64,000 bases of DNA from Actinomycetospora sp. NBRC 106375 (GTDB lineage: Bacteria; Actinomycetota; Actinomycetes; Mycobacteriales; Pseudonocardiaceae), in assembly GCF_030269665.1 (NCBI RefSeq), contig NZ_BSTS01000018.1, positions 1 through 64,000 of the forward strand. Reading direction: 5' to 3'. The position numbers and the translations under genes were made by a program. Position 1 is the stretch's first letter; every line of letters starts with the position of its first letter. This document shows positions 31,817 to 46,449 of this stretch, piece after piece. Below the pieces are notes generated by a model. That model worked only from the letters and a program-made list of their open reading frames with translations, was not told the DNA's origin and ran no database searches.

Positions 31817-33766
31817 TCATCGCTGCAGACCGCCGGTTTCCCGGCACGTGTCCGCCGGCCATGCGCTGCGCCGGAGCAGCCGCAGACCGTTGAGGGCGAC
31901 GAGGATCGTCGAGCCCTCGTGGCCCGCGACGCCGAGCGGGAGCGGCAGGTGCCCAACGACGTCCCACATCACGAGCCCCACGACGACGGCGGCCGCGGCG
32001 ACGAGGTTGGCCCGCACGAGCCGGTGGGCACGGCGTGCGAGCGCGAGCGTGGCGGGGACGGCGTCCAGATCGTCCCCGACGATGACGACGTCCGCGCTGC
32101 GCAGCGTCACGGCGGTGTCCGGGGAGCTGCCGCGATGGCTGACGGCGATCCCGACGTCCGCGGCGGCGAGGGCCGGGGCGTCGTTGACGCCGTCGCCGAC
32201 CGCGAGGACGACGTCCCCGACCCGGCGGAGATCGTCGATGGCCGCCACCTTGTCCTCCGGCAACATCCCGGCGTGGGCCTGCGCGATGTCCACGGCATCG
32301 GCGACGCGCCGTGCCGCCTGCGGCTGGTCGCCCGTGAGGAGCACCGGCGCCCGCCCGACGAGGGAGCGCAACCGGGCGACGGCGCGCACCGCGCTCGGCC
32401 GGGGATGGTCGGAGAGAACGACGACGCCGACCGTCCGTCCGTCGGCGACGACCGCGACGACGGTGTCGCCGAGGGCTTCCGCCTCGGCGACGGCACGCCT
32501 CGCCCACCCGTCGTCGGACTCGTCGTCCCCCCGGTCCGCGAGAACGCGGTCGGGACGACCGATCACGACCTCGACGCCGCGGACCGATGCGGAGGCACCC
32601 GTGCCCGGTACGGCTCGGAAACCGGTGGGCGTGGCGAGAGCGGCCTCCGGGACGGCCGCGAGGATGGCCCCGGCGAGCGGGTGCTCGCTCCCGGACTCGA
32701 CGGCCGCCGCGAGGGCGAGGACGTCGTCCCGCGACCAGCCGGGCGCACCGTGGACGGCCGTGATCTCCGGCGCGCCCGTGGTGAGCGTGCCGGTCTTGTC
32801 GACGACGACCACGGTGGTCGACGCGAGCCGTTCCATCACCTCGGCCGAGCGGACGAGCACGCCGTGACGGCTCGCGGTGGCGATGGCGGCGAGCAGCGGC
32901 GGCATGGTGGCGAGCACGAGGGCGCAGGGCGAGGCGACGATCATGAACGTCATCGCCCGCAAGAGGGCGTCCACGAGCAGCTCGCCGGACAGCAGGGGCG
33001 CCACGAACAGCACCACCGTCGCGGTCACCACCACGACCGAGTAGCGCTGCTCGATCCGCTCGATCGATCGTTGCGTCGGCGCCGTCGTCGACGACGCCTC
33101 CTCCACCTGGGCCGCGATGCGCGCGACCACCGAGCCGCTCGCCTCGCGGGACACCGTGACACGGAGCAACCCCGAACCGTTGACCGTGGCCGCGTAGACC
33201 TCGTCGCCGACGCCCGTGGGCGCGGGCAGTGATTCACCGGTCACGGTCGCCTGGTCGGTCTCGCTCGCACCCGCGGCGACGACACCATCCGCTGGGACGC
33301 GCTCACCGGGCCGGACGACGATCACATCGCCGACGGCGAGGTCGTCGACCTCGACGATCTCTTCCCCGTGGCCCGGAGCGACGCGGACGGCGCGCGAGGG
33401 CGTCAGGTCCAGCAGCCCCCGAACGGAATCCGCCGTGCGTGCCGTCGCCCAACCCTCGAGCGCGGCCGACGTCGCGAAGATGACGATGAGCAGGCCCCCG
33501 TCGAACGCCTGGCCGATGGCGGCCGCACCGAGCGCCGCCACGACCATGAGCAGGTCGACGTCGAGCGAGCGCGCCCGGAGCGCCGCGACGCCGTCGCGCG
33601 CGGAACGCCATCCGCCGGTGAGATAGCAGGCCGCGAGAGGCGGCCCCCACAGCACCGCCGGAGCTCCCGCGAGGTGGAGCGCTGCGGCGAGAAGAAACCC
33701 GGCGAGAGACCCGGCCGCCCAACGAACCTCCGGGAGGAGGAGCATCCGTCGCACGATAGCCAGCAT
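31817..33766 (-). CDS. ctpJ: P1B-4-type metal-exporting ATPase (CtpJ/CoaT-like)
   Basis: 649 residues from ATG 33766; ATG 33745 is possible. P-type ATPase motifs: TGES actuator loop, the transmembrane SPC motif (IVASPCALVLATM), phosphorylation site DKTGT and hinge GDGVNDAP. The last helix carries HEGST. SPC plus HEGST marks the P1B-4 subgroup that exports cobalt, nickel or iron. No N-terminal metal-binding domain is present, as usual for this subgroup. It is divergent from an NmtR-like sensor with a palindrome between, the same arrangement as Rv3743c (ctpJ)/Rv3744 (nmtR) in Mycobacterium tuberculosis. Confidence 0.9.
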   Translation of the reverse strand: MLAIVRRMLLLPEVRWAAGSLAGFLLAAALHLAGAPAVLWGPPLAACYLTGGWRSARDGVAALRARSLDVDLLMVVAALGAAAIGQAFDGGLLIVIFATSAALEGWATARTADSVRGLLDLTPSRAVRVAPGHGEEIVEVDDLAVGDVIVVRPGERVPADGVVAAGASETDQATVTGESLPAPTGVGDEVYAATVNGSGLLRVTVSREASGSVVARIAAQVEEASSTTAPTQRSIERIEQRYSVVVVTATVVLFVAPLLSGELLVDALLRAMTFMIVASPCALVLATMPPLLAAIATASRHGVLVRSAEVMERLASTTVVVVDKTGTLTTGAPEITAVHGAPGWSRDDVLALAAAVESGSEHPLAGAILAAVPEAALATPTGFRAVPGTGASASVRGVEVVIGRPDRVLADRGDDESDDGWARRAVAEAEALGDTVVAVVADGRTVGVVVLSDHPRPSAVRAVARLRSLVGRAPVLLTGDQPQAARRVADAVDIAQAHAGMLPEDKVAAIDDLRRVGDVVLAVGDGVNDAPALAAADVGIAVSHRGSSPDTAVTLRSADVVIVGDDLDAVPATLALARRAHRLVRANLVAAAAVVVGLVMWDVVGHLPLPLGVAGHEGSTILVALNGLRLLRRSAWPADTCRETGGLQR

Positions 33767-33771
33767 ACCCG

Positions 33772-33795
33772 TACATGTGAACACTCCGACATGTA
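33772..33795. promoter_or_regulatory. NmtR-type operator between ctpJ and nmtR
   Basis: TACATGT, ten bases, ACATGTA: perfect 7-bp arms centred between the divergent genes. It lies six bases upstream of the ctpJ ATG at 33766, so repressor binding would block that promoter or start directly. Confidence 0.7.
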
Positions 33796-33833
33796 TGTAA
33801 TCGGGCCTCCGGCCCATCGATTACGCTGGCCGC

Positions 33834-34247
33834 ATGGGTCACGGGGTGTCGGCGACGGGGCCACCGGTCGCGCGCCTGGACCCCCAGGCCGTGGACGCCG
33901 TCGCGCAGACCTTGCAAGCGCTCGCGACGCCGAGCCGGCTGCGGATCCTCCTGCGGCTCCGCGAAGGTGCGGCCACCGTCGGGGAGCTCGCCTCGGCCGT
34001 GGCGATGGAGCAATCGGCCGTGTCCCACCAGCTGCGCGTCCTGCGCCACCTGGGCCTCGTGACGGGGACCCGTGCGGGGCGGTCGATCTCCTACGAGCTG
34101 CACGACGGTCACGTGGCCCAACTGCTCGACGAGGCGATCTACCACGTGGAGCACCTCCGGCTGCCCGGTGAGGTGTCGTCAGCCGGTCGTGCCGGGGCGG
34201 CGGCCGGGTCCGAGAACGCAGTCGGCGCAGGTGGTCGCTCCCGGTAG
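33834..34247 (+). CDS. nmtR: ArsR/SmtB-family nickel/cobalt sensor NmtR
   Basis: 137 residues closely resembling M. tuberculosis NmtR: MGHGV at the start, TLQALATPSRLRIL, EQSAVSHQLRVLRHLGLV recognition helix and LLDEAIYH. The described NmtR ligands D91, H93, H104 and H107 are all present at the same numbers, and His3 of the N-terminal MGHG is also kept. The C-terminal tail lacks the His116 equivalent. It represses the divergent exporter ctpJ and releases on Ni(II) or Co(II) binding. Confidence 0.92.
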   Translation: MGHGVSATGPPVARLDPQAVDAVAQTLQALATPSRLRILLRLREGAATVGELASAVAMEQSAVSHQLRVLRHLGLVTGTRAGRSISYELHDGHVAQLLDEAIYHVEHLRLPGEVSSAGRAGAAAGSENAVGAGGRSR

Positions 34248-34895
34248 TCGCCACACGAGGCAGCACGTCCGGCGCGCCACCGTCGCACCCGTCGGCGAGA
34301 CGAGGACCCGACCCGTCCCGGCCCAGGGCGGTCGCGCAAGCAGCTCCTCGGCGCAGCTCACGGCCCGGTCGCGCGCGGAGGACCGCTCGCGGGAGATCAC
34401 TCGCAGCACCCCGCCCACGGCAGCGACCGCGTTCCCCCACAGGAGCCGTTGCGAGATCGAGCACTCCGCCCGCACGGCCGCAACGAGCGCGCCGAGGGGC
34501 TCGACGAGAGCCTCGTGGAGACGATCGTCGCCCATGGGGACGGATGCGGGGTCGGCCATCCACAACGGCATCAGTCCGCCGTCCCACGCGCGCCAGTGCA
34601 GGGTGTCCGGGAGAGCCACCAGGAGGCGGTCGTGGAGCACGGCGACGGCGAGCACCGGCGCGACGACCCGAGCGGCGAGACCGCTGAACAGCACCGACGC
34701 AGCGACCCGCCGGTCGGTCACACCCAGGCGGTCCACCAGCGCCCCGAGCGCCCGACCCAGCACCGCGGGGTCGGCCGACAGGGCGGTGAGCGGACGCCAC
34801 CCCGCCAGTTCGGCCTCGTGCCGCGGCCCCGTCTCGACGGCGAAGGCCCGCCCCAGGTGGGCGACGTCGGTGAGCAGGGCCCGCCCTCCGATCAC
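34179..34895 (-). CDS. FhuF-like (2Fe-2S) protein
   Basis: 238 residues from a GTG at 34895 that overlaps the TGA of the preceding gene (GTGA). The C-terminus has CC-x10-C-x2-C (TCCLVWRLPGATTCADC), the exact cysteine spacing of the FhuF ferric-siderophore reductase family. The rest (WDGGLMPLWM, LLWGNAVAAVGGVLR) also fits. It would carry electrons in the cytoplasm to a bound metal chelate. It is last in the run with the NicO-type permease, and its 3' end overlaps that of nmtR on the other strand by 69 bases. Confidence 0.75.
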   Translation of the reverse strand: MIGGRALLTDVAHLGRAFAVETGPRHEAELAGWRPLTALSADPAVLGRALGALVDRLGVTDRRVAASVLFSGLAARVVAPVLAVAVLHDRLLVALPDTLHWRAWDGGLMPLWMADPASVPMGDDRLHEALVEPLGALVAAVRAECSISQRLLWGNAVAAVGGVLRVISRERSSARDRAVSCAEELLARPPWAGTGRVLVSPTGATVARRTCCLVWRLPGATTCADCVLGPGRRPGTTG

Positions 34896-35389
34896 AGGCG
34901 GATGCCCGCCGCGCACCACTGCTCGGTGCTCCGATGGCGGCCGAGGCCGAGCATCACGAACTCGTCGGCCCCGGCGACGGCTTGGACCCCGAGGTAGCGC
35001 AGGGCCTCGCAGAACGGGCTGCTCCCGTCGTCGGGAAACCGCTCGGTCGGCACGAGCAGGCGCGGTCCGTAGACGACCTGACAGTCCAGCCACACCGCCG
35101 CGGTCTGCCGGCCCACGTCGCCGCGGTAGTCGGCTTCCAGGTAGACCACCACGCCGTGCCGGGACGCCGCGGTGATCATGGCTGCCACACCCGAGGACAG
35201 TCGGTCGAAACCGCTCTCGGGATCCACCCGGAAGCCGGCGAGGTCGATCGAGCCGTAGAGCTCCTCACACAGCGGCACCATGGCGAGATCGGCACCGTCG
35301 AGCAGGACGGCCCGCGCATGCCGGCACTGCTCGACGATGGGTCCGAGCGCCTCGGGACCAGCGATGATGGCGTGCAGCTCGTACCGCAT
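34892..35389 (-). CDS. conserved hypothetical protein in the nickel/cobalt operon
   Basis: 165 residues starting MRYELHAIIAGPEAL; the ATG lies within TGATG at the end of the sigma-like gene, so it is translationally coupled. The sequence is soluble, with no signal peptide or membrane segment. It contains blocks such as CRHARAVLLDGADLAMVPL and ITAASRHGVVVYLEADYRG. I do not recognise a family. It is also coupled to the FhuF-like gene downstream. Confidence 0.6.
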   Translation of the reverse strand: MRYELHAIIAGPEALGPIVEQCRHARAVLLDGADLAMVPLCEELYGSIDLAGFRVDPESGFDRLSSGVAAMITAASRHGVVVYLEADYRGDVGRQTAAVWLDCQVVYGPRLLVPTERFPDDGSSPFCEALRYLGVQAVAGADEFVMLGLGRHRSTEQWCAAGIRL

Positions 35390-35856
35390 CACCGACGGCC
35401 CACATCGGCCCCGACGAGGGCGCGCAGCCGCGCGACGGTGCGTTCACGGTGCACCCCGGCCTCGGACTCGCCGCAGCCCAGCGCCGCGGCCAGCTCGGCG
35501 TCGCTCCATCCGTCGACACAGATCCACACGAGCACCTGCTGAACGTCCGCGGGCAGGGCCTCCAGCTCACGGCGCAGCGCGGGCCAGGGCGGCGGGCTCA
35601 GGGTGCCGGTGCCGACCGCCGCGATGGCCTCCTCCGCGAGCCGCGCGATCCGGCCCGAGAACGGCAGGCCCCAGTACCGGAACACGGCCGGGCGCGCGAC
35701 GAGCCCGGCGACGACGTGGGCCGCAACCGCCTCCCCCGCCGCCGCGTCGCCGAGACGCACGCGGCAGGTGTAGGCGACCGCGTCGTGAGTGGTCGCGACC
35801 CGCCGCACCCACTCGGCGAACGGCGTGGTGGCCTCCGGGGAGACCGGCCCCGACAC
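35389..35856 (-). CDS. sigma-70 region-4-like protein
   Basis: 155 residues from a GTG at 35856, immediately after the TGA of the permease gene. The C-terminal part (LEALPADVQQVLVWICVDGWSDAELAAALGC..VHRERTVARLRAL) resembles region 4 of ECF sigma factors, with the helix-turn-helix. The N-terminal part is short and lacks a clear region 2. It could be a divergent sigma factor or a DNA-binding adaptor for the metal genes. The link is by context only. Confidence 0.55.
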   Translation of the reverse strand: MSGPVSPEATTPFAEWVRRVATTHDAVAYTCRVRLGDAAAGEAVAAHVVAGLVARPAVFRYWGLPFSGRIARLAEEAIAAVGTGTLSPPPWPALRRELEALPADVQQVLVWICVDGWSDAELAAALGCGESEAGVHRERTVARLRALVGADVGRR

Positions 35857-36993
35857 TCAGGCCTCCGCCGCAGCTGTCCCCGGAGGAGACGTCGCCGGGG
35901 CGTCATGCGGGGCCTCGACCACGGCGACGGCGGCGTGCCGGTCCTCGAAACGACCGAGCCGCCAGATCAGGGCGGCCCCACCCCAGACCACGACGAAGAA
36001 CCCGACGATGACGTAGCCGAGGAGCTCGAAGTCGTCCGCGAGACCCGCGTAGCCCTCCAGCCACGCCACGCCGAGGTCGTCGGCGAGCACACCGGCGAGG
36101 TAGACGCTGGAGACGAACCCCGCCACCGTCACCGTCGCCGCGGTGGTGGCGATGTTGTAGAAGAGCCGCCGCGCCGGGTTGCGGTTCGACCAGGAGTAGG
36201 CCACGGACATGATCAGCCCGTCGGCGGTGTCGAAGGCGCTCATGCCCGCGGCGAACAGCAGCGGCAACGTCAGCGCGGCGACCAGCCCCGTCCCGCCCGC
36301 ACCGGCCGTGGCGGTCGAGGCCGACAAGGTCAGCAGCGTGACCTCCGACGCGGTCTCCAGCCCGAGACCGAACAGGAAGCCCAGGGGGTACATGTGCCAC
36401 GAGTGCTTGATCAGCGTCCGCGCCCGGCCGCCGAGGATCCGGTTCACCAGACCGCGGTTGAGCAGCTGGCGCTCGAGCTCGTCACGGTCGAGCCGCCCGG
36501 CGCGCAACTGCCGCCACGACCCGACGATGCCGACGAGCACCATCAGGTTGAGCACCGCCACCAGCGCGAGGAACACCATGGCCACGACCGTCGACACGGT
36601 CCCGCCGATCTCACGGAAGCCGTCGATCTGCGACGTGGTCGCGACGCCGGCCGCCGCGGCGACGACCAGGGACAGGAGCACGACGACCGACGAGTGGCCC
36701 ATCGCGAAGAAGAAGCCGACGCCGACCGGCCGCCGTCCGCGCTGCACCATGAGTCGGGTGGTGTCGTCGATCGCGGCGATGTGGTCGGCGTCGAAGGCGT
36801 GCCGGATGCCGAGCACGTACGCCAGCACCCCGGCGCCCGCGAACGCTCCGGCGCCCACAGGACCGGACGTCAACGACAGGTAGAGCGTCCACCCCACGAT
36901 GTGGAGCAGGGCGATGGCGGCGACGATCGCGGAGAGCTGGACGCGCTGGGAGCGCGTCCAGGCGGCTCCGGGAACCGCGGCGAGAGTGGTCAT
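35857..36993 (-). CDS. NicO/HoxN-family nickel/cobalt permease
   Basis: 378 residues, about eight transmembrane helices. The signature HAFDADHIAAIDDTTR (HX4DH) is in helix 2, with later conserved segments FFFAMGHSSVVV, LGLETASEV and AGMSAFDTADG. This is the NiCoT family (HoxN, NixA, NhlF), which imports Ni(II) and/or Co(II). It opens a run of four overlapping or adjoining genes (permease, sigma-like, unknown, FhuF-like). In Rhodococcus the homologue NhlF supplies cobalt for nitrile hydratase. Here the neighbour is an amidase locus and no hydratase is in the window. Confidence 0.9.
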   Translation of the reverse strand: MTTLAAVPGAAWTRSQRVQLSAIVAAIALLHIVGWTLYLSLTSGPVGAGAFAGAGVLAYVLGIRHAFDADHIAAIDDTTRLMVQRGRRPVGVGFFFAMGHSSVVVLLSLVVAAAAGVATTSQIDGFREIGGTVSTVVAMVFLALVAVLNLMVLVGIVGSWRQLRAGRLDRDELERQLLNRGLVNRILGGRARTLIKHSWHMYPLGFLFGLGLETASEVTLLTLSASTATAGAGGTGLVAALTLPLLFAAGMSAFDTADGLIMSVAYSWSNRNPARRLFYNIATTAATVTVAGFVSSVYLAGVLADDLGVAWLEGYAGLADDFELLGYVIVGFFVVVWGGAALIWRLGRFEDRHAAVAVVEAPHDAPATSPPGTAAAEA

Positions 36994-37105: not shown

Positions 37106-38761
37106 TCAGGGAGTCGGCACCACGGTCTGGACCATCGGCGCAATGTGGGCGCCCTGGACCTCGGTGATATCCGAAGACGCGGGCGCGTCACCCCGGATCG
37201 CCGCGTGCGGCACGACGACCCAGCACGCGCAGCCCCAGATGCACTCCCCCGCCATGCCGTCGAAGCGGATCGACTGCTCGGAGAGGATCACCCCGAGGTC
37301 GAGCAGCCACGAGTGCATCATCAGCTTCGTGTCCCAGTCCTCGATCTGGTCGTACGCGTCCCGCGCCGCGTAGAAGGCGGTGAGGTCCGTCTTCGCCACC
37401 CCGGGGATGATGATGTTGGAGTAGCAGGTGAGCTCGTCGAAGAACTCGCCGTTGGTCGTCACGAGCGTGCCGTCGTCGCCGTCGAGCAGGTACTCGCCCA
37501 GCACCGACTCCAGCTTCTTCTGGAGCGTGTCGTTCCACATCTCGCGCGGCCCGACCGTGTTGACCTCGATGTAGTCGGTCTTGAAGCCCTCCTTGATCCC
37601 GGAGAACGTCGGGATGTAGCCGATCCACTTGCTGACCACCTCGCGCCACTTGCCGCGCGGCTCGCCGGGCAGGACCTCGACCCCGGGATGGGTGTACTTG
37701 GCGACGTCGTAGATCGTCCAGGCCCGGTCCCCGGAGATGTTGCGCTCGTGCGGGGCCCCGGTGAAGCCGGCCGGGCGCAGCATCTTGAACAGCAGGCGCC
37801 CGTAGTCCTGCACGACGAAGCGGGTGAACGAGTCGTCGACGAACTTGCGGGTGACGCCCTTGCGCAGCGCGTCGCGGATCGCCGGCACCCCGGTCTTGGT
37901 GTACTGGCCCAGGCGCTGCCACGAGTGCTCCTGGGGCAGGGCCATGAAGCCGCCGGTGAAGGGGTTCTTGTACAGATCGCCCCAGACCGCCATGACGCCC
38001 TGGTTCTTCTCGTCGTCGAGCATGCAGTCGATCTCGTTGATCGTCGGGTACAGCGCCGCGGCACCGCCCGCGTGCTCCTCGTCGCCGGAGAAGGGCATGA
38101 CGCCGATGCCGACCACCGGGATGCGCCGCCCGAGCTTGACGTTCGAGAGGTGGCGCACCATGTCGACGACCATGCCCGATCCGGTACCCCCGGCCATCGA
38201 GAAGAAGACCAGCACCATCGAGGGCAGCTTGGTCTTGTTGATGGAGTCGACGAAGAGGTCGAGCTCCTTCTCCAGCACCTTGTCGCCGCCGTAGTAGTAG
38301 TGCCCGTAGATCGCCTTCGCGATGGCGCGCGGGCACGTCTCGCCCGGCTTCGGCATCTCCATGTCGGCGGGCAGCCACGGCTCGTAGTTCGGGTTCCAGT
38401 AGTAGCGCGGGTACTCCATCTTCAGGTACTCGCGCCACCGGTTGAGGCTCGTTCGCAGCTCCTCCGAGCTCGGGGTCTCGAGCGCGACCGTGCGCACCTG
38501 ATGGCGGTCGGTAGGGATCTCCCGCTCCTCGAGCCGCTGCGTGAAGCCGCCCGCGTACTCCTTGAGCTCGTGCATGTCCTGCTCGCCGATGTCGATGGCC
38601 AGGCCGGTGAAGCGGGCCCGGGGGTCGTCGAGCTGGTCCTCGATCTCCCCGGTGCGCAGGAGCGCCTCGACCATGTAGGCGCCGGTCTTGCCGATGCCCA
38701 CGGCGTGGATGCAGTGCGGGGACTGGCTGCCGGTCGCGGAGTGGTAGAGCGACATTCCCAT
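37106..38761 (-). CDS. tubulin/FtsZ-superfamily-like protein A
   Basis: 551 residues. A nucleotide-binding T1-like loop GIGKTG (22-27) follows a hydrophobic strand. The tubulin/FtsZ T4 signature is seen as FSMAGGTGSGM (Gly-rich loop 190-197), with LAIDIG near 55 as a T3-like loop. The layout recalls the poorly studied bacterial Tubulin_2-like group rather than FtsZ. A C-terminal segment ECIWGCACWVVVPHAAIRG places Cys at 507, 511 and 513. AGGAAGG precedes ATG 38761. It is third in the run 40707-37106 and paralogous to the protein at 39145-40707. GTP binding is inferred. Role unknown. Confidence 0.65.
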   Translation of the reverse strand: MGMSLYHSATGSQSPHCIHAVGIGKTGAYMVEALLRTGEIEDQLDDPRARFTGLAIDIGEQDMHELKEYAGGFTQRLEEREIPTDRHQVRTVALETPSSEELRTSLNRWREYLKMEYPRYYWNPNYEPWLPADMEMPKPGETCPRAIAKAIYGHYYYGGDKVLEKELDLFVDSINKTKLPSMVLVFFSMAGGTGSGMVVDMVRHLSNVKLGRRIPVVGIGVMPFSGDEEHAGGAAALYPTINEIDCMLDDEKNQGVMAVWGDLYKNPFTGGFMALPQEHSWQRLGQYTKTGVPAIRDALRKGVTRKFVDDSFTRFVVQDYGRLLFKMLRPAGFTGAPHERNISGDRAWTIYDVAKYTHPGVEVLPGEPRGKWREVVSKWIGYIPTFSGIKEGFKTDYIEVNTVGPREMWNDTLQKKLESVLGEYLLDGDDGTLVTTNGEFFDELTCYSNIIIPGVAKTDLTAFYAARDAYDQIEDWDTKLMMHSWLLDLGVILSEQSIRFDGMAGECIWGCACWVVVPHAAIRGDAPASSDITEVQGAHIAPMVQTVVPTP

Positions 38762-38836
38762 GACGGAACCTTCCTGATGAGGACGTGCGGGACCGCGCGC
38801 ACGGCCGACGGCCGAGCGCGCGACTCCCTGGTGCGG

Positions 38837-39136
38837 TCAGTCGAGGTAGCCGAGGTCCTTGAGGACGGTGGCGGCCGTCGTCGGCCGCTCGTCGGCGATG
38901 AAGGTGCGGTAGTGGTCGATGACCGACGCGTAGTCGCGGGTCATCCGGCCCTCGTCGAGCAGCGTCATCGCCTTCTCGATGTAGGCCCGGGTCAGCTTGT
39001 CGGTCCAGAGCCGGTGCGCGACGTAGATGTACTCGTCGTCGGCGCCCGTGACCTGCAGGGTGCGGGCGCCGGGCATCGAGGGCAGCGATGCCCCGTCCTT
39101 GTAGCGCTCGACGATCTCGCTCCAGGCGATGGCCAC
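38837..39136 (-). CDS. small protein of unknown function, paralogue of 43750-44070
   Basis: 99 residues from a GTG at 39136 with GGGGGAG upstream. It begins VAIAWSEIVERYKDGASL and ends TAATVLKDLGYLD. The pattern W..(I/V).RY..GA.L at the start, LW.D...R in the middle and VL(K/R)DLGYL at the end is shared with the small protein at 43750-44070 on the other side of the amidase genes. It lies 8 bases after the stop of tubulin-like B and 75 bases before tubulin-like A. I recognise no known family. Confidence 0.65.
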   Translation of the reverse strand: MAIAWSEIVERYKDGASLPSMPGARTLQVTGADDEYIYVAHRLWTDKLTRAYIEKAMTLLDEGRMTRDYASVIDHYRTFIADERPTTAATVLKDLGYLD

Positions 39137-39144
39137 GGCTCCCC

Positions 39145-40707
39145 CTAGCCGGTCGCGAACGGGGCGACGGGTTCGCTGGCGGCCAAGGCGTCCGTGACTG
39201 CGGCGGCCGGCTTCACGGGGTCCTCTCCGCGGATCGCCGCATGCGGCACGACCACCCAGCAGGCGCAGCCCCAAATGCACTCGCCCCCCATGCCGTCGAA
39301 CCGGATGGACGGCTCGCAGAGCATCACTCCCAGGTCGAGCAGCCACGAATGGATGAGCAGCTTGTCGTCCCACTCGAGGGTGTCGTAGTAGTCGCGAGCG
39401 GGGACGAACGCGGCGAGATCGGTCTTGCTCGCCCGCGGCAGGACCACGCTGACCTGGTCGTCGGAGCCGTCCACGGCGAGGGCGACAGGGTCGACGCGGC
39501 TCGAGACGATCGACCCCACCGCGGAGGCGACCTTCGGGAGGTCGCTGTCGGAGCCCCCGCTCAGCCTGGCCTCCACGTACTCGGTCTCGAATCCCTTCAC
39601 CAGGCCGGCGGCCCCGAGGGAGTCGAGGTCCGCCAGCGACCGCGTGGTGAGCACGTTGACCCACCGGTCGCCCTGTTCCCCGCGGATCGCCGGGTGCCAG
39701 GCGTCCGCGGGCACGGCCAGCCAGTTGAGCGCCTTGAGGGTCTCGTAGAGGTCGACGCCCGCGTTGCGCGCCAGGAACGACCCGACGCCCCGGTCGACGT
39801 ACTCGTGGGTGGCGGCGAGGTCCCCGGTCAGCTCCTGCACGTCGGCCTGATCGACGAGGAAGAAGCCGCCCGTGAAGGGGTTCTTGTACAGATCCCCCCA
39901 GACCGCCATGACCCCCTTGTTCTTCTCGGTGTCGATCATGCAGTCGAGCTCGTTGATCACCGGGAAGAGGCGGCCGTCGGCGTACTCGGGAAGATCGGCC
40001 GGATTCGGCATGATCCCGAGGCCGACCACCCAGGGCCGACGTCCCAGCTTGATCGACGACAGGTGCCGGGCGATCTCGACGACGATGCCGCTGCCCACCC
40101 CGCCGACCATCGAGAACGCCACGACGACGAGAGGCGTGGCCTCGCTCGCCATCACGTTCGCGGCGAACGTGTCGAGAGCGGTGGCGATCTCCTTGTTCTG
40201 GTAGTACTCGGCGCCGTAGACGGCCTTCGCCACAGCTCGGGAGAAGTGCCCGTCCGAGGGGGCGATCTCGACGTCGGCGGGCAGCCACGGCTCGTAGTTC
40301 GGGTTCCAGTAGTACCGCGGGTACTCCATCTTGAGGAACTCGCGGTAGCGGTTGAGCGCATAGGACAGGTCGGCCTGCGACGGGACCGGCATCGCCACGG
40401 TGTTCACGAACGTCTTCTCGGCGGGCATCGACGCTGCCGTGTCCCGCACCTGCGCGAGATCCTCGTCCCCGATGTCGACGGCGAGTGCCCCGAATCGCGT
40501 CCCGTCCTCGGTGAGGAAGCCTTCGGGCGGGTTCTGCAGGATCGACGTGATCAGGTCGGCACCGGTCTTGCCGAGCCCGAGCACGTGGAGGGAGAAGGGC
40601 CCCTCGTGGTCCCCGGCGCGGTGCACGCCCTCGGAGCTCAGGGCCTCGATACGTGCCATGTCGTCGGTCGTGCCGTGGTCATGGTCGTGGTCATGGTCGG
40701 CGGCCAT
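39145..40707 (-). CDS. tubulin/FtsZ-superfamily-like protein B with His-rich N-terminus
   Basis: 520 residues; start fixed by AGGAGGT before ATG 40707. The N-terminus MAADHDHDHDHG puts His at 5, 7, 9 and 11, a likely metal-binding arm. T1-like loop GLGKTG is at 44-49, and the T4-like loop reads VGGVGSG (201-207), with Val where tubulins have Thr. Blocks shared with protein A include MEYPRYYWNPNYEPWLPAD, VMAVWGDLYKNPFTGGF and the C-terminal ECIWGCACWVVVPHAAIRG (Cys 477, 481, 483). It lies 140 bases after amiE on the same strand. Function unknown. Confidence 0.65.
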   Translation of the reverse strand: MAADHDHDHDHGTTDDMARIEALSSEGVHRAGDHEGPFSLHVLGLGKTGADLITSILQNPPEGFLTEDGTRFGALAVDIGDEDLAQVRDTAASMPAEKTFVNTVAMPVPSQADLSYALNRYREFLKMEYPRYYWNPNYEPWLPADVEIAPSDGHFSRAVAKAVYGAEYYQNKEIATALDTFAANVMASEATPLVVVAFSMVGGVGSGIVVEIARHLSSIKLGRRPWVVGLGIMPNPADLPEYADGRLFPVINELDCMIDTEKNKGVMAVWGDLYKNPFTGGFFLVDQADVQELTGDLAATHEYVDRGVGSFLARNAGVDLYETLKALNWLAVPADAWHPAIRGEQGDRWVNVLTTRSLADLDSLGAAGLVKGFETEYVEARLSGGSDSDLPKVASAVGSIVSSRVDPVALAVDGSDDQVSVVLPRASKTDLAAFVPARDYYDTLEWDDKLLIHSWLLDLGVMLCEPSIRFDGMGGECIWGCACWVVVPHAAIRGEDPVKPAAAVTDALAASEPVAPFATG

Positions 40708-40847
40708 GTGGGGACCTCCTGCGTACGGTTCGTCGGAGCTGGGGAGCGGGCGGGAGCCCGCAGACGCGCGGCACCCACGACGGGGGCCGCCGGCGGCCGC
40801 TCCGTCGAGGCGCGCGGTGATGAGGAATTCGGCGGTGGGCCGGGGTC

Positions 40848-41882
40848 TCAGACGGGGGTGTCCTGGTTCGGCAGCCCGTCGATCGGCGCCTCGCGGGTGC
40901 CGATGGTCTCGCGGGTCATCTCCTCGACCTGCTTCTGCGCGAGGGCGGGGTCGTTGACCCAGGTCTTGTAGAAATCGAACGGGCACTCCGCGACACCCTT
41001 GACGCCGTCCCCGGACTGGTGGACCCCGGTGTAGCCGCGGTGCAGCAGCTTGAACAGGTGGTTCTGCGACTGCCAGTTCGCGCGGGCGTCACGGATCATC
41101 GACAGCGACAGTTCCGCGTACTGCACGCCCATCTCCTCGGTGCCGCACTCGCCCAGGGTGCGACCGTCGAAGCCGACGATGGATGAGTGCCCGAAGTAGG
41201 AGTAGACGCCGTCGAAACCGGTGGCGTTCGCGACGGCGACGTAGCAGTTGTTCGCCCACGCCATCGACTTGGCCATCATGATCTGCTGTTCCTTGGCCGG
41301 GTACATGTAGCCCTGCGGCCGGACGACGAGCTCGGCGCCCTTCATGACGCAGTCGCGCCAGATCTCGGGGTAGTTCCCGTCGTCGCAGATGATCAGCGCG
41401 ATCTTGAGGCCCTTGGGGCCCTCGACCACGGTGGTGTGCTCGCCGGGGTACCAGCCCTCGATCGGCACCCACGGCAGGATCTTGCGGTACTTGTTGACGA
41501 TCTCGCCGTCGGAGTTGATCAGCACGAGGGTGTTGTAGGGGTTCTTGTCGGGGTGGTCCTCGTGGCGCTCACCGGTGAGCGAGAAGACGCCCCACACCCC
41601 GGCCTCGCGGCAGGCCCTCCCGAAGATCTCCGTCTCGAAGCCGGGGCACGACGCGGCGTTCGCGAACATCTCGTCGCGGTCGTACATGATCCCGTGGCTC
41701 GAGTACTCCGGGAACACGATCAGGTCCATGCCGGGGAAGCCCTGCTTGATGCCTCCGATCATGGACGCGATCTGCTCGCAGTTCGCCCTGATGCCCGCCT
41801 CGTCGTGCAGCCGGGGCATCGTGTAATTGACGACGGCGACGCCGACTCCGTCCGCGCTGCTGCTGATGTCCCCGTGTCGCAT
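40848..41882 (-). CDS. amiE: aliphatic amidase (AmiE type)
   Basis: 344 residues (Pseudomonas aeruginosa AmiE has 346). Nitrilase-superfamily catalytic residues fall at the Pseudomonas numbers: E59 in IVFPEYSS, K134 in YRKILPW, E142 in IEGWYPGE and C166 in ICDDGNYPE. It hydrolyses short aliphatic amides (acetamide, propionamide, acrylamide) to acid plus ammonia in the cytoplasm. AGGAGGG precedes ATG 41882. It heads the leftward run amiE, tubulin-like B, small protein, tubulin-like A, and lies downstream of a MarR gene and an AmiC-like gene pair. Confidence 0.93.
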
Positions 41883-41951
41883 GGCACCCCTCCTGCTCCG
41901 GCCCCGAGCCGTACGTGTGTCCGGCGCCACCCGACGGTACGACCAGCCACT

Positions 41952-41969
41952 CGGAAGACAATATTTCCG
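41952..41969. promoter_or_regulatory. possible operator upstream of amiE
   Basis: CGGAA, eight bases, TTCCG, in the 131-base gap before amiE. The same pentamers in the reverse order (TTCCG-ATC-CGGAA) lie before the permease gene at 44166. Weak on its own. Confidence 0.3.
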
Positions 41970-42013
41970 GAGCAGAAGTAATCAGGCCGAAACACCGCCC
42001 CCGGGCCGGACCC

Positions 42014-42496
42014 TCAGGGGGTGCGCGCGCGCTCCGCTGAGCCCGCGGCCGCGCCGAGACGGTCGAGCAGACCGAGCAGGTCGAGCCGGTCGGTCCCCGG
42101 CAGGTCGGAGAGGACCGTCCCGAAGGCCTCGTCGAGCTCGGCAGCCGCACGCGTGACGACGGCATGCCCTTCGGTCGAGATGTGGACGAGCACCCGCCGG
42201 CGGTCCCACGGATCGCTGCGACGGAAGGCGAGTCCGTCGGCCACGAGCTTGTCGACCATCCGCGTCGCGGTCGGCGCCGGCACGGCGGCCCGGAGCGCGA
42301 TCTCACCCATGGTGTGGCCCGGGGAGTCGGTGCCGTCGGGCGCCGTGCCCTCGTCGAGGAGCATCAGCGCACGCCACTGCTCCCGGGACAGGCCCTCGGA
42401 GACGGTGATCTGTGCGAGGCAGGCACCGACGGTGCGGTCCGCCAGGTCGAGCATGTCGACGATCCGCATGCGGCTCGGACGGGGAGGGTCGGACAT
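42014..42496 (-). CDS. MarR-family regulator
   Basis: 160 residues from ATG 42496 with GGGGAG upstream. A winged-helix core is visible: EQWRALMLLDEG, IALRAAVPAPTATRMVDKLVADGLAFRRSDPWDRRRVLVHIS, the typical MarR recognition helix and DxRxxxV wing. It is transcribed toward amiE and divergent from the AmiC-like gene. In Mycobacterium smegmatis the acetamidase operon is also controlled by a MarR-type protein (AmiA) together with AmiC, so a similar inducible control is likely here. Confidence 0.85.
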   Translation of the reverse strand: MSDPPRPSRMRIVDMLDLADRTVGACLAQITVSEGLSREQWRALMLLDEGTAPDGTDSPGHTMGEIALRAAVPAPTATRMVDKLVADGLAFRRSDPWDRRRVLVHISTEGHAVVTRAAAELDEAFGTVLSDLPGTDRLDLLGLLDRLGAAAGSAERARTP

Positions 42497-42622
42497 GGTC
42501 AGCGCTCCCCTCTCTCCACCCGCCCACGTCGCGCGACGGAACGACGGCCTCTCGGCCGAGGGTCGCGCATCAGCGAGGTAGAGCGCCATACTGGCCGATC
42601 TGATCGTAGCCGAGGGATTCGC

Positions 42623-43744
42623 ATGGCGAACGGACTGGACCGATCGCCCCTCGTGTGTGAGGGACCATCTACGACGGACGACGCGGTCCGAGTCGCCCTG
42701 GTGACCCCGTGGCAGGGGTCGGCCGGTGTGTTCGGGCTGTCCTGTCGCATGGCGTCCGAGCTCGCGGTCTCCGAGATCAACGACGGGGGCGGGCTGCTGC
42801 ACCGTCGCGTCGCCCTGCACCACGTCGACGGCGGCGCCGACCCGGCCTCGGTCGCCGACGAGGTCCAGCGACTGGTGCGCGCCGGCCACGTCGACGCCGT
42901 CGTCGGCTGGCACATCTCGGCGGTGCGGCGGCGCATCGCGCCGCGGATCGCCGGCCACGTCCCCTACGTCTACACCGCGCTCTACGAGGGCGGCGAGCGC
43001 ACGCCCGGCGTGATCGTCACGGGCGAGACACCGAAGAACCAGCTCGGTCCTGCGCTGGGCTGGATGCGCGAGGCGCTGCGTGTCCGCCGGTGGGCGATCG
43101 TCGGCAACGACTACGTCTGGCCCCGTGCGTCCGCAGCAGCCGCCCATCGCTGGGCGCGCCGGCACCACGCCGAGATCACGACCGACCTGTTCGTCCCGCT
43201 GGGGACGCGGGACTTCTCGTCGGTCCTGCGCGATCTCGCGCGGTCGGGGGCCGACGGGGTCCTCATGCTGCTCGTCGGCGAGGACGCCGTGCACTTCAAC
43301 CGGGCCTTCGCCGCCGCCGGGATGGATCTCTTCCAGACCAGGCTCACCACGTTGATGGACGAGAACATGCTGCTCGCGTCCGGGACACGGGCCACGCATT
43401 CGCTCTACGTCGCGGCGGGGTTCTTCGAGGATCTCACGACCGCGGCCGCGCTCGACTTCACAGGACGGTGGGCACGGCGCTACGGGGTGAACTCGCCGAC
43501 GCCGTCGAGCCTCGGGGAGTCGTGCTACGAGGGCCTGAACCTCTACACCGCGATGGTCCGCCGGGCCGGGACCGTCGCGCGGGAGGACCTCCTCGCGGTC
43601 AGTGAGGGACTGCACTACGACGGTCCGCGCGGGGAGGTGTACGTCGAGCGGGGCCACACGGTCCAGGACGTCTACATCGCCGAGGCCCGGGGCGTGGAGT
43701 TCGACGTCGTGGCCCGCTTGTCGTCGGGGTTCGTGGAGAGCTGA
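42623..43744 (+). CDS. amiC: AmiC-like amide-binding protein (type I periplasmic-binding fold, no signal peptide)
   Basis: 373 residues. The fold of branched-chain-amino-acid/urea-binding proteins is evident (VALVTPWQGSAGVFG, ASELAVSEINDGGGLLHRRV, GETPKNQLGPALGWM, SCYEGLNLYTAMVRRAG). There is no signal peptide or lipobox, so it should stay in the cytoplasm, as AmiC of P. aeruginosa does when it senses amides. It is divergent from the MarR gene and faces the amidase block. It is probably the inducer sensor for amiE. No AmiR antiterminator gene is seen. Confidence 0.8.
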   Translation: MANGLDRSPLVCEGPSTTDDAVRVALVTPWQGSAGVFGLSCRMASELAVSEINDGGGLLHRRVALHHVDGGADPASVADEVQRLVRAGHVDAVVGWHISAVRRRIAPRIAGHVPYVYTALYEGGERTPGVIVTGETPKNQLGPALGWMREALRVRRWAIVGNDYVWPRASAAAAHRWARRHHAEITTDLFVPLGTRDFSSVLRDLARSGADGVLMLLVGEDAVHFNRAFAAAGMDLFQTRLTTLMDENMLLASGTRATHSLYVAAGFFEDLTTAAALDFTGRWARRYGVNSPTPSSLGESCYEGLNLYTAMVRRAGTVAREDLLAVSEGLHYDGPRGEVYVERGHTVQDVYIAEARGVEFDVVARLSSGFVES

Positions 43745-43749
43745 GACCG

Positions 43750-44070
43750 TCAGCTCGCGAGGTAGCCGAGGTCGCGCAGGACGATCGCCGTGAGGTTCGG
43801 GCCGCGGGTGCAGCCGGTGTCGACGTGGGCACGTCGGCGGCGAAGAGCCTCGGCGAAGGCCACCGGCTCCGTGGCGATCTCGCCGGTGTTGAGCAGCACC
43901 ACAGCGGCCTCGAGCTCACTGCGCGCGACGCAGTCGCGCCACAGGCTCTGGCTCAGGCAGATCCGATCGTCGTCGATCTCGACGACCCGGACCGGCGCCG
44001 AGCCGGTGAGCGACCACAGCTGCGCGCCGCCCTCGTAGCGCTGACGTACCCAGTCCCAGTCCAGCGGCAT
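43750..44070 (-). CDS. small protein of unknown function, paralogue of 38837-39136
   Basis: 106 residues from ATG 44070, with GGAGG five bases upstream. It begins MPLDWDWVRQRYEGGAQL, has LWRDCVARSELEAAVVLLNTGE in the middle and ends LTAIVLRDLGYLAS, matching the small protein between the tubulin-like genes. Convergent with the AmiC-like gene (stops 5 bases apart) and divergent from the permease gene. A co-factor or adaptor for the same system is inferred from this duplication. Confidence 0.65.
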   Translation of the reverse strand: MPLDWDWVRQRYEGGAQLWSLTGSAPVRVVEIDDDRICLSQSLWRDCVARSELEAAVVLLNTGEIATEPVAFAEALRRRRAHVDTGCTRGPNLTAIVLRDLGYLAS

Positions 44071-44165
44071 CCCGGCCTCCTCGGTCGTCGCGGGCGACGG
44101 GGCGCCGGCACGGCGGTCGCCCCACGGACGCAACACCGTTGTCACGACCGGAGCCTACCTTTTGC

Positions 44166-44178
44166 TTCCGATCCGGAA
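44166..44178. promoter_or_regulatory. possible operator upstream of the permease gene
   Basis: TTCCG-ATC-CGGAA, a perfect 5-bp inverted repeat 44 bases before ATG 44222, in the divergent gap to the small-protein gene. Flanking ACCTTT/AGGT extends the symmetry partly. Confidence 0.35.
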
Positions 44179-44221
44179 AGGTCCTCGACGGGCCGACCAC
44201 CACCACCGGAAGGCCAGCACC

Positions 44222-45949
44222 ATGAGCGCGGAGACCAGCGCCCCGTCCGGGGCTCCATCGCCGAACCACGACCAGGCGATGGCGGGAGGCGGCTCGAGTC
44301 GACTGCGACGCTGGGCCTCGAGCGAGGGCATCGAGGACTACTCGCTGCGCTACGCGCCCAAGAAGTTCCGGCGTTGGTCCCCGCTACTGGTGGCCGGCGC
44401 CGCGCTCGGAGGCATCGCCTACCTGGCCGACTACGCCATCGGCGCGTCGGTCGTTCTGACCAACGGCACCCCGTCCGGCGTCCTGGGCATCCTGGTCGCC
44501 GCTGTGATCATCTTCTTGACCGGGATCCCGATCTCGGTGTACTCCGCGCGCTACGGCATCGACATGGATCTCCTGACCCGGGGCGCCGGATTCGGCTACC
44601 TCGGGTCCACGATCACGTCGTTGATCTACGCGAGCTTCACCTTCATCTTCTTCGCTCTCGAGGGCTCGATCATGGCCCAGGCGCTCGACCTCGGACTCGG
44701 CATCCCGCTGCCGATCGGCTACCTGATCACGGCCGTGGTGGTGCTGCCCCTGGTGATCTACGGGATGTCGGCGCTCGCTCGCTTCCAGGCCTGGACCCAG
44801 CCGCTGTGGCTGCTCGTCCTCGTGTTGCCGATCATCGCCCTCCTCGTCGCGGCGCCGGAGGCGTTCGGGGAGTTCGCCTCCTACACCGGTGACGCCGGGC
44901 CCGGCGTCCAGCTGCTCGGTACCGGGCTCGCCGCCGGCGTCGCGCTCTCGCTGATCGCCCAGATCGGAGAGCAGGTCGACTACCTGCGCTTCATGCCGCC
45001 GGAGTCGGAGGTCGGGCGACTGCGGTGGTGGACCGCGGTGCTCGCCGCCGGCCCGGGCTGGGTGATCCTCGGCGCCATCAAGCAGATCTGCGGTGGCCTG
45101 CTCGCGGTCTACGTCCTGGCGGCCGTCGGGGAGACCGTCGCCGAGGAGCCGATCACCCAGTTCGTGCGCTCCCTCGGACTGATCGTGCCGGGCTGGGCGG
45201 CGATCCTGCTTGCGGTGATCTTCGTGGTCGTCTCCCAGTTGAAGATCAACGTGACGAACGCCTACTCCGGCTCGCTGTCCTGGTCCAACTTCTTCTCCCG
45301 CGTGCTGCACGCCCATCCCGGACGCGTCTGGTGGATCTTCCTCAACGTCGGCGTCGCCCTGGTGCTGATGGAGGTCGGCGTGTTCGGCTTCCTCAACGCG
45401 GTGCTGGCGTTCTACTCCAATGTCGCGATCGCCTGGATCGGCGCCGTCGTCGCCGATCTCGTGATCAACAAGCCGATCCTCAAGCTCTCCCCGAGCTACA
45501 TCGAGTTCAAGCGCGCCCATCTGCGCTCGGTGAACCCGGTGGGCTTCGGCTCCATGGCCGTCGCCTCGGTGGTGTCGATCGTCGCCTACTTCGGTCTGCT
45601 CGGTGACTTCCTCGCCGCGTGGTCCCCGATCCTGGCGATCGTCATCGCGTTCGTGCTCTCGCCCGTGATCTGCCTCGCGACCCGCGGCCGCTACTACCTC
45701 GCTCGGCCCGACGACCTCGAGCCTCCGCTCGTGCGGCCCGACGGCACCCTCGAGACCGCGGAGCAGATCTGCGGGGCCTGCGGACAGAGCTTCGAGCGCC
45801 CGGACCTCGCCTCCTGCCCTTACCACGCGAGCACCGGGGTCGTGTGCTCCCTGTGCTGCACCCTCGAGAAGCACTGCGGCGAGATGTGCAAACCGGCCGG
45901 CACCGCCGCCGATCTGCCCATGCCGACGGCCAGGCACGCCGCAACCTGA
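44222..45949 (+). CDS. NCS1/purine-cytosine-permease-type transporter with cysteine-rich C-terminal tail
   Basis: 575 residues. About twelve hydrophobic helices with NCS1-like features (GIEDYSLRYAPKKFRRWSP at the start, GSTITSLIYASFTFIFFALEG, INVTNAYSGSLSWSNFF). NCS1 carriers import nucleobases, allantoin, hydantoins or amide-like compounds with H+ or Na+. Unusually, the last ~75 residues carry ICGACGQSFERPDLASC, a further CSLCC and CGEMC, about ten cysteines, like a zinc or iron-sulfur module. Context suggests it imports the amide or a related nitrogen compound. GAAGG precedes the ATG. Confidence 0.8.
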   Translation: MSAETSAPSGAPSPNHDQAMAGGGSSRLRRWASSEGIEDYSLRYAPKKFRRWSPLLVAGAALGGIAYLADYAIGASVVLTNGTPSGVLGILVAAVIIFLTGIPISVYSARYGIDMDLLTRGAGFGYLGSTITSLIYASFTFIFFALEGSIMAQALDLGLGIPLPIGYLITAVVVLPLVIYGMSALARFQAWTQPLWLLVLVLPIIALLVAAPEAFGEFASYTGDAGPGVQLLGTGLAAGVALSLIAQIGEQVDYLRFMPPESEVGRLRWWTAVLAAGPGWVILGAIKQICGGLLAVYVLAAVGETVAEEPITQFVRSLGLIVPGWAAILLAVIFVVVSQLKINVTNAYSGSLSWSNFFSRVLHAHPGRVWWIFLNVGVALVLMEVGVFGFLNAVLAFYSNVAIAWIGAVVADLVINKPILKLSPSYIEFKRAHLRSVNPVGFGSMAVASVVSIVAYFGLLGDFLAAWSPILAIVIAFVLSPVICLATRGRYYLARPDDLEPPLVRPDGTLETAEQICGACGQSFERPDLASCPYHASTGVVCSLCCTLEKHCGEMCKPAGTAADLPMPTARHAAT

Positions 45950-46029: not shown

Positions 46030-46449
46030 ATGCCGGACAGTCTCTACGAGCGGCTCGGGGGCACGTACGCCATCGCGGGAGCCGTCGATGTCCTGGTCGA
46101 CCGGCTGTTCGAGAACGCCGGTGTCAACGCGAACGCCGCCGTCCACGAGCACCACGGGAACCCCGCCAACGGGCCTGGTTACAAGTTCCTCGTCACCGCG
46201 TGGTCGATCGAGGCCGCGGGCGGGCCGAAGTGCTACCCCGGCGAAGACATGATCGCCGCGCACACGTCGTTGAAGATCAATGACGAACAGTTCGACGCGG
46301 TCTACTTCGAGATCGAGGCCACCCTGCGTTTTCTCGGCGTCCCCCAGGCCGAGACTGCGGAGTTCATGACGATCATCGAGCACTACCGCCCCGAGGTGGT
46401 TCAGCAGAAGAAGGTCGAACAAGCCGGAACCCTCGCCCCGGCGAGCTGA
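46030..46449 (+). CDS. group I truncated haemoglobin
   Basis: 139 residues. It starts YERLGGTYAIAGAVDVLVDRLF and has the proximal-His segment MIAAHTSLKINDEQFDAV, both typical of trHbN-type globins, which bind O2/NO. GGGGGA precedes ATG 46030, 80 bases after the permease gene, so it may be cotranscribed. The distal-pocket part is less standard (GPGYKFLVTAW), and an insertion HEHHGNPANGPGY adds His residues. Its link with amide uptake is unclear. Confidence 0.75.
   Translation: MPDSLYERLGGTYAIAGAVDVLVDRLFENAGVNANAAVHEHHGNPANGPGYKFLVTAWSIEAAGGPKCYPGEDMIAAHTSLKINDEQFDAVYFEIEATLRFLGVPQAETAEFMTIIEHYRPEVVQQKKVEQAGTLAPAS

Follow-up and report, generated by a model that had tools for sequence, protein, structure and literature searches.

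Known systems and the Actinomycetospora locus

The closest described system is the acetonitrile hydratase (ANHase) of Rhodococcus jostii RHA1, described in the literature since 2007 as a nitrile hydratase (NHase) of unusual metal content. Published accounts place its genes in the order alpha, AnhE, beta (PMC3511329, PMC3680314, PMC7193024), describe AnhE as a cobalt metallochaperone (PMC3511329, PMC3680314) and name Co, Cu and Zn as the metals of the enzyme (PMC7193024), with one Co, two Cu and one Zn per functional ANHase (PMC3766881); a further paper instead lists ANHase among the enzymes matured by self-subunit swapping (PMC7329996). We describe here a gene set from a 64,000-nucleotide stretch of Actinomycetospora sp. 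NBRC 106375 (contig NZ_BSTS01000018.1, positions 1 to 64,000; the whole stretch is hereafter called the window) in which the genes for two large paralogous proteins, T2 and T1 (42% identical), flank the gene for a 99-residue protein, S1. This is very probably a nitrile-utilisation operon built on an ANHase-type nitrile hydratase composed of T2 and T1.

Other described systems share parts of this set. As in the Pseudomonas and Mycobacterium ami operons, which encode AmiE and AmiC, an AmiE amidase is accompanied by an AmiC-like binding protein, but the amidase would here be the second enzyme of a nitrile pathway and a MarR-family regulator stands in AmiR's place. With the classical Co/Fe nitrile hydratase (PF02979), T2 and T1 would have in common the type of reaction and a cysteine claw; the claw is of the C-x-[TS]-L-C-S-C type in the classical enzyme, a motif missing from both proteins, which have C-x-x-x-C-A-C instead, and neither matched the NHase Pfam families (PF02979/PF02211) at E<=1.

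The RHA1 plasmid pRHL2 encodes a MarR regulator, an AmiC-like protein, an aliphatic amidase, T2, a 99-aa protein, T1, an HTH protein and a nickel transporter. There T2 (514 aa) is annotated as a 'tubulin-like doman-containing protein', while the 99-aa protein and T1 (568 aa) are annotated as hypothetical. On the minus strand of the window the order is MarR, AmiE-type amidase, T2, S1, T1 and then a NicO-type permease, and identity to the pRHL2 counterparts is 55% for T2, 62% for S1 (RHA1_RS41535) and 57% for T1. The two loci agree in gene order; in each, a 99-aa protein stands between two paralogous large subunits, accompanied by an amidase, MarR, an AmiC-like protein and a permease of the NicO type. 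They differ in that the window carries a Cys-x3-Cys-x-Cys motif in both large subunits and RHA1 in T2 only, in that the window adds a second AnhE-like gene (S2), an NCS1-like transporter and a globin, and in the 55-62% identity itself.

With high probability the gene set of pRHL2 encodes ANHase, and the same then holds for its counterpart in the window. Our reasoning for this is that: (i) the gene order corresponds; (ii) the pRHL2 middle protein has a computed mass of 11.1 kDa and one histidine, and AnhE is reported to be an 11.1-kDa protein with a sole histidine whose gene lies between anhA and anhB; and (iii) the classical NHase alpha model found no match on pRHL2, in a search of the plasmid and not of the RHA1 chromosome. 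T2 would be the alpha subunit because the published order is alpha, AnhE, beta. The original prediction had presented the locus as a candidate undescribed system and had overlooked S1; the presence of the same set with an AnhE-like middle gene on pRHL2, in an order matching the published one for acetonitrile hydratase, argues against that description.

Elsewhere in the window's genome, on another contig, lies a gene for a classical NHase alpha subunit (G000:C38:6794-7348, L075; 252.6 bits with the same model), and two unrelated nitrile hydratases may therefore coexist in this genome. This gene, together with the cobalt genes adjoining T1 and T2, could be taken to mean that T1 and T2 are metal-storage or cobalt-homeostasis proteins and that the true nitrile hydratase lies elsewhere. 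We give this explanation very little weight, as no classical alpha gene was found on pRHL2 and as the published ANHase order has structural genes flanking AnhE, the positions held here by T2 and T1.

In Rhodococcus the set also occurs on plasmids pNit of R. rhodochrous ATCC BAA-870 and pCP1 of R. qingshengii; on both, an amidase and a cobalt transporter of the CbiMNQO type accompany it. The BAA-870 genome paper counts one plasmid nitrile hydratase and does not contain the word 'tubulin', so the second set on that plasmid seems to have gone unnoticed.

Conservation of the gene set and its neighbours

Using T1 as the query against a species-genome collection described as holding 84,980 species, we obtained 49 loci; three plasmid loci, out of 15 plasmid records that were retrieved, were added to them. 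With T1 as the query, a locus carrying only T2 or only S1 would have escaped notice. The order T2-S1-T1 is kept at 50 of these 52 loci, the exceptions being one contig end and one fragment, and the loci span five phyla (Actinomycetota, Cyanobacteriota, Pseudomonadota, Myxococcota and Bacillota). Of 150 genomes sampled from the family to which the window belongs, 12 gave a match; one match was weak and partial (E 3.1e-4), which leaves 11 genomes with the system; its occurrence there is patchy, and in Rhodococcus it is plasmid-borne. The nearest T1, that of Actinomycetospora sp. TBRC 11914, is 96% identical to the window's.

That the two proteins should accompany an amidase in other genomes was borne out: an AmiE-like amidase or FmdA is present at 41/52 loci, and AmiE at >=60% identity at 32/52. 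The weakest calls are CN-hydrolases at 48% (L007, L047) and an FmdA match at 37% (L036). At some loci the partner of T2-S1-T1 is FmdA, or a CN-hydrolase that is just 40-48% identical to AmiE, and the product that is handled may accordingly vary by lineage. One could extend this argument to the window and propose that T2/T1 is an ANHase-family metalloenzyme whose main substrate here is another compound, e.g. cyanide, isonitrile or thiocyanate, a proposal that differs from ours in substrate alone and to which the 55-57% identity of T2 and T1 to their RHA1 counterparts also lends itself. The window's amidase is clearly an aliphatic amidase, as in RHA1, and we regard a different main substrate as improbable.

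Genes for metal supply recur in the same neighbourhoods. A Co/Ni transporter (NicO, CbtA or CbiM) is found at 23/52 loci and a CobW-family chaperone at 21/52; one or the other is present at 38 loci, or 39 if DUF1636 is counted. As a background, 21 related genomes (~117 Mb) gave 53 NicO, CbiM or CbtA matches over the cut-off, or ~0.45 per Mb, which for the 0.91 Mb of the 52 loci predicts ~0.4 transporter loci against the 23 observed; this background comes from the window's relatives only and from Pfam models, while the locus counts come from tblastn, and CobW is not covered by it. The permease next to T1 is the sole NicO match in the window's genome in a Pfam model search.

Predicted tubulin fold of T1 and T2

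Structure prediction gave a tubulin fold with high confidence for both T1 and T2, comprising the GTPase and intermediate domains. The original prediction had linked the two proteins to tubulin/FtsZ through loop motifs, and those it quoted are present (GxGxxG and GGTGSG-type loops); on the structure models, the kinship is one that extends past the motifs to the whole predicted fold. Sequence comparison gave fainter signals. In Pfam, T1 scored 31.2 bits with Tubulin_2 (cut-off 27) and 30.5 bits with Tubulin (cut-off 33). A search of PDB sequences yielded no close solved relative of either protein; the only matches were marginal ones to FtsZ/tubulin-type proteins and a single one to pelota, the best E-values for FtsZ/tubulin being 0.049 (T1 alone), 0.037 (T1 profile) and 0.0032 (T2 profile). 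Profile-profile alignment to 23 actinobacterial FtsZ pieces produced short local matches at the T4 loop of the T1 protein and the T1 loop of the T2 protein, of low probability (9% and 2%, respectively), and nothing useful in global mode. The alignment supports the motif register and is by itself no proof of homology; with matches of such low probability, it is the structure models that carry the fold assignment. No NHase structure appeared among the 50 listed for each model.

In a tree of 46 T1 proteins, 46 T2 proteins and five third copies (see below), a single branch with full support (SH-aLRT 100) sets T2 apart, and the third copies fall within the T1 side; judged by eye, the T1 and T2 halves follow the same groups.

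Compared with the tubulin/FtsZ superfamily (CetZ, FtsZ, TubZ, tubulin; Pfam Tubulin_2), T1 and T2 share the predicted fold and the two glycine loops, but differ in their Cys motif, their cobalt context, a YYWNPNYEPW stretch and the near-universal lack of the T7 signature. The T7 loop, which serves GTP hydrolysis, has the signature N-x-D-x-x-[DE] in FtsZ/tubulin-type cytomotive GTPases. This pattern occurs anywhere in the sequence in only 1/48 T1 rows and 5/50 T2 rows, and none was seen by eye in the window's own T1 and T2, which lie outside that count. Past the long central helix (298-332 in T2), where T7 would be expected on the basis of secondary structure only, there are instead invariant His-containing stretches: H339-x-A341-x-R343 in T2 and A336-P-H338-E339 in T1. 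The YYWNPNYEPW stretch, placed between S3 and H3 by secondary structure, is found in 43/48 T2 rows and 34/48 T1 rows.

These data bear on the idea, put forward in the original prediction, that T1 and T2 form GTP-driven cytomotive filaments scaffolding the amidase or a partner enzyme. The tubulin fold, the GTGSG loop kept in 47/48 T1 rows and the frequent amidase are what such a scaffold would lead one to expect. Of the 48 T2 rows covering that loop, however, just 25 have GTGSG, the T7 pattern is nearly gone from both proteins, the cobalt genes and the AnhE-like chaperone would be left unexplained, and the RHA1 set matches a known enzyme. We therefore consider filaments most unlikely, and GTP-driven polymerisation of T1/T2 is not indicated. 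The cobalt genes, the Cys-x3-Cys-x-Cys motif and the missing T7 signature point rather to a metalloenzyme whose reaction comes directly before that of the amidase. Of the original prediction, the tubulin kinship and the association with an amidase stand, while novelty of the system and a filament or GTP-driven scaffold are not supported.

A candidate cobalt site and the proposed pathway

Both large subunits of the window carry GECIWGCACWVVVP close to the C-terminus. We scored C-x3-C-x-C in 48 pairs, that is, at loci with both C-termini (L044, L046, L049 and L052 were not countable): both subunits have it in 35, T2 only in 10, RHA1 among them, T1 only in three, and no pair lacks it in both. A double loss would be expected by chance in 10 x 3 / 48 = 0.6 pairs, so that the observed 0/48, although in line with a motif kept in every pair, is not significant; the pairs are, besides, related to each other. 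The single cobalt reported for the RHA1 enzyme would agree with one working Cys site in each heterodimer. Since its C-A-C end resembles the C-S-C of classical NHase, we infer that the motif is a cobalt claw, which would have arisen by convergence with the classical enzyme.

The operon most likely encodes a nitrile pathway of the ANHase type, for which we propose the following. T2 and T1 would form an AnhA-AnhB heterodimer arranged like alpha/beta tubulin, with cobalt held in the Cys-x3-Cys-x-Cys claw of T2 and perhaps also in that of T1, as both carry the motif. Cobalt would be taken up by the adjacent permease and loaded into the hydratase by S1 (AnhE). The metal would activate water for attack on a small aliphatic nitrile; AmiE would hydrolyse the resulting amide, yielding acid and ammonia, and sensing of the substrate or the amide would fall to MarR and the AmiC-like protein. 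The T1 and T4 glycine loops may represent a retained or modified nucleotide pocket from which the T7 signature has gone, and the pocket may have been kept for a role in assembly or in loading the metal. A bolder version, which we think rather unlikely, is that ANHase is the first heterodimeric metalloenzyme of the tubulin superfamily with a working pocket, in which GTP bound to one of the subunits either drives assembly, of heterodimers or of protofilament-like structures, or controls the loading of cobalt from AnhE, and catalysis takes place at the tubulin-type interface.

Several observations weigh against the ANHase assignment or its parts. An amidase is missing from the DNA examined at 11/52 loci, and 13/52 show no transporter, CobW or DUF1636 gene; truncation is not the whole cause of these 13 blanks, as eight of them are near full length. 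CobW-family chaperones are, moreover, not all cobalt-specific. T2 scores only 17.6 bits with Tubulin_2, below the cut-off of 27. L044 is a possible exception to the Cys pattern, its T2 lacking the motif and its T1 ending before the motif place. The equation of the pRHL2 genes with anh is built on gene order and on the features reported for AnhE, its size among them, and no record examined names them anh. Finally, a motif of the C-x-[TS]-L-C-S-C type is stated in one paper to be present in all known NHase alpha subunits (PMC7329996).

Novelty and implications

The operon type, as an ANHase operon, is already known; what appears to be unreported is that ANHase would be a tubulin-superfamily pair, on the predicted models, with Cys-x3-Cys-x-Cys in one subunit or both of every scored pair and, in nearly all rows, no T7 signature. 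A search of the open-licence literature found no paper linking nitrile hydratase or nitriles with tubulin or FtsZ. Since database names read 'tubulin-like', the fold signal has been noticed before, and not the function. To our knowledge, the tubulin superfamily has been known only for cytomotive or scaffold GTPases. If the subunits do have a tubulin fold, the superfamily includes a cobalt hydratase and, if our reading is true, nitrile hydration by a cysteine claw arose on two unrelated folds. Genes named 'tubulin-like' or 'hypothetical' beside amidases in five phyla would then probably encode nitrile-degradation enzymes, which would be useful for biocatalysis and clean-up.

Gene layout and neighbouring genes

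Table 1. Features of the window in and around the proposed nitrile-utilisation operon
Feature	Positions	Strand	Basis
Sigma-70 region 4-like protein	35389..35856	-	PF08281 27.1 bits, cut-off 25.7
NicO/NixA-type nickel-cobalt permease, probable cobalt supply	35857..36993	-	PF03824 236.8 bits
T1, tubulin-fold subunit (predicted), probable ANHase beta (AnhB), 551 aa, GGTGSG loop and GECIWGCACWVVVP motif	37106..38761	-	
S1, probable AnhE (cobalt chaperone for the hydratase), 99 aa, GTG start, 11.3 kDa	38837..39136	-	
T2, tubulin-fold subunit (predicted), probable ANHase alpha (AnhA), 520 aa, GECIWGCACWVVVP motif	39145..40707	-	
AmiE-type aliphatic amidase, proposed second pathway step	40848..41882	-	NF009802 661 bits; PF00795 165 bits
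MarR-family regulator	42014..42496	-	PF12802 41.8 bits
AmiC/UrtA-like ligand-binding protein, probable amide or nitrile sensor partner	42623..43744	+	PF13458 266 bits
S2, AnhE paralog, CTRGPN motif	43750..44070	-	
NCS1-like membrane transporter, 575 aa	44222..45949	+	named by reading of the sequence; no Pfam match at E<=1
Truncated haemoglobin	46030..46449	+	PF01152 30.6 bits

More than one AnhE-like gene is present at 20/52 loci. S2 is 32% identical to its paralog S1 and has a C-[ST]-R-x-P-N motif near its end; proteins related to it, found at many Pseudonocardiaceae loci, make up a type of their own. At the loci with S2 relatives a third AnhE-like type is located downstream of T1, and no such third copy was found in the window. 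S1 itself had no convincing relative in the PDB, the one match (E 0.02) being to an epimerase.

AmiC-like proteins gave tblastn matches at 35/52 loci, many of them only 22-29% identical, and homologs of the sigma-70 region 4-like protein occur at 27/52, mostly downstream of T1. NCS1-like transporter homologs adjoin four cyanobacterial clusters. The window's NCS1-like protein has a tail rich in Cys, and one of its cyanobacterial homologs (L024:366-3305) sits in a 980-aa frame ending in histidine-kinase domains, for which reason the protein may be a transporter-like sensor. Two Actinomycetospora relatives (L005, L006; 85%) likewise have a truncated haemoglobin close to the cluster.

Close to the cobalt permease the window has a metal-handling patch, with a P-type metal ATPase (minus strand) beside an ArsR-type regulator (plus strand) at 31817-34247 and an FhuF-like frame at 34179-35093 (minus strand).

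Among the other loci, one from a metagenome bin (L023:1056-2566) has T2 split into pieces in different frames. Five Pseudomonadota loci encode a third tubulin-like protein without the Cys motif (L029:14248-15474, L030:14265-15500, L035:14674-15972, L042:14230-15540 and L074:16919-17764). CbbQ-type AAA genes are found at four of these (L029, L030, L035 and L074), and VWA genes are annotated in L074 and on a Shinella plasmid; these AAA and VWA genes perhaps represent a metal-insertion system of the MoxR type.

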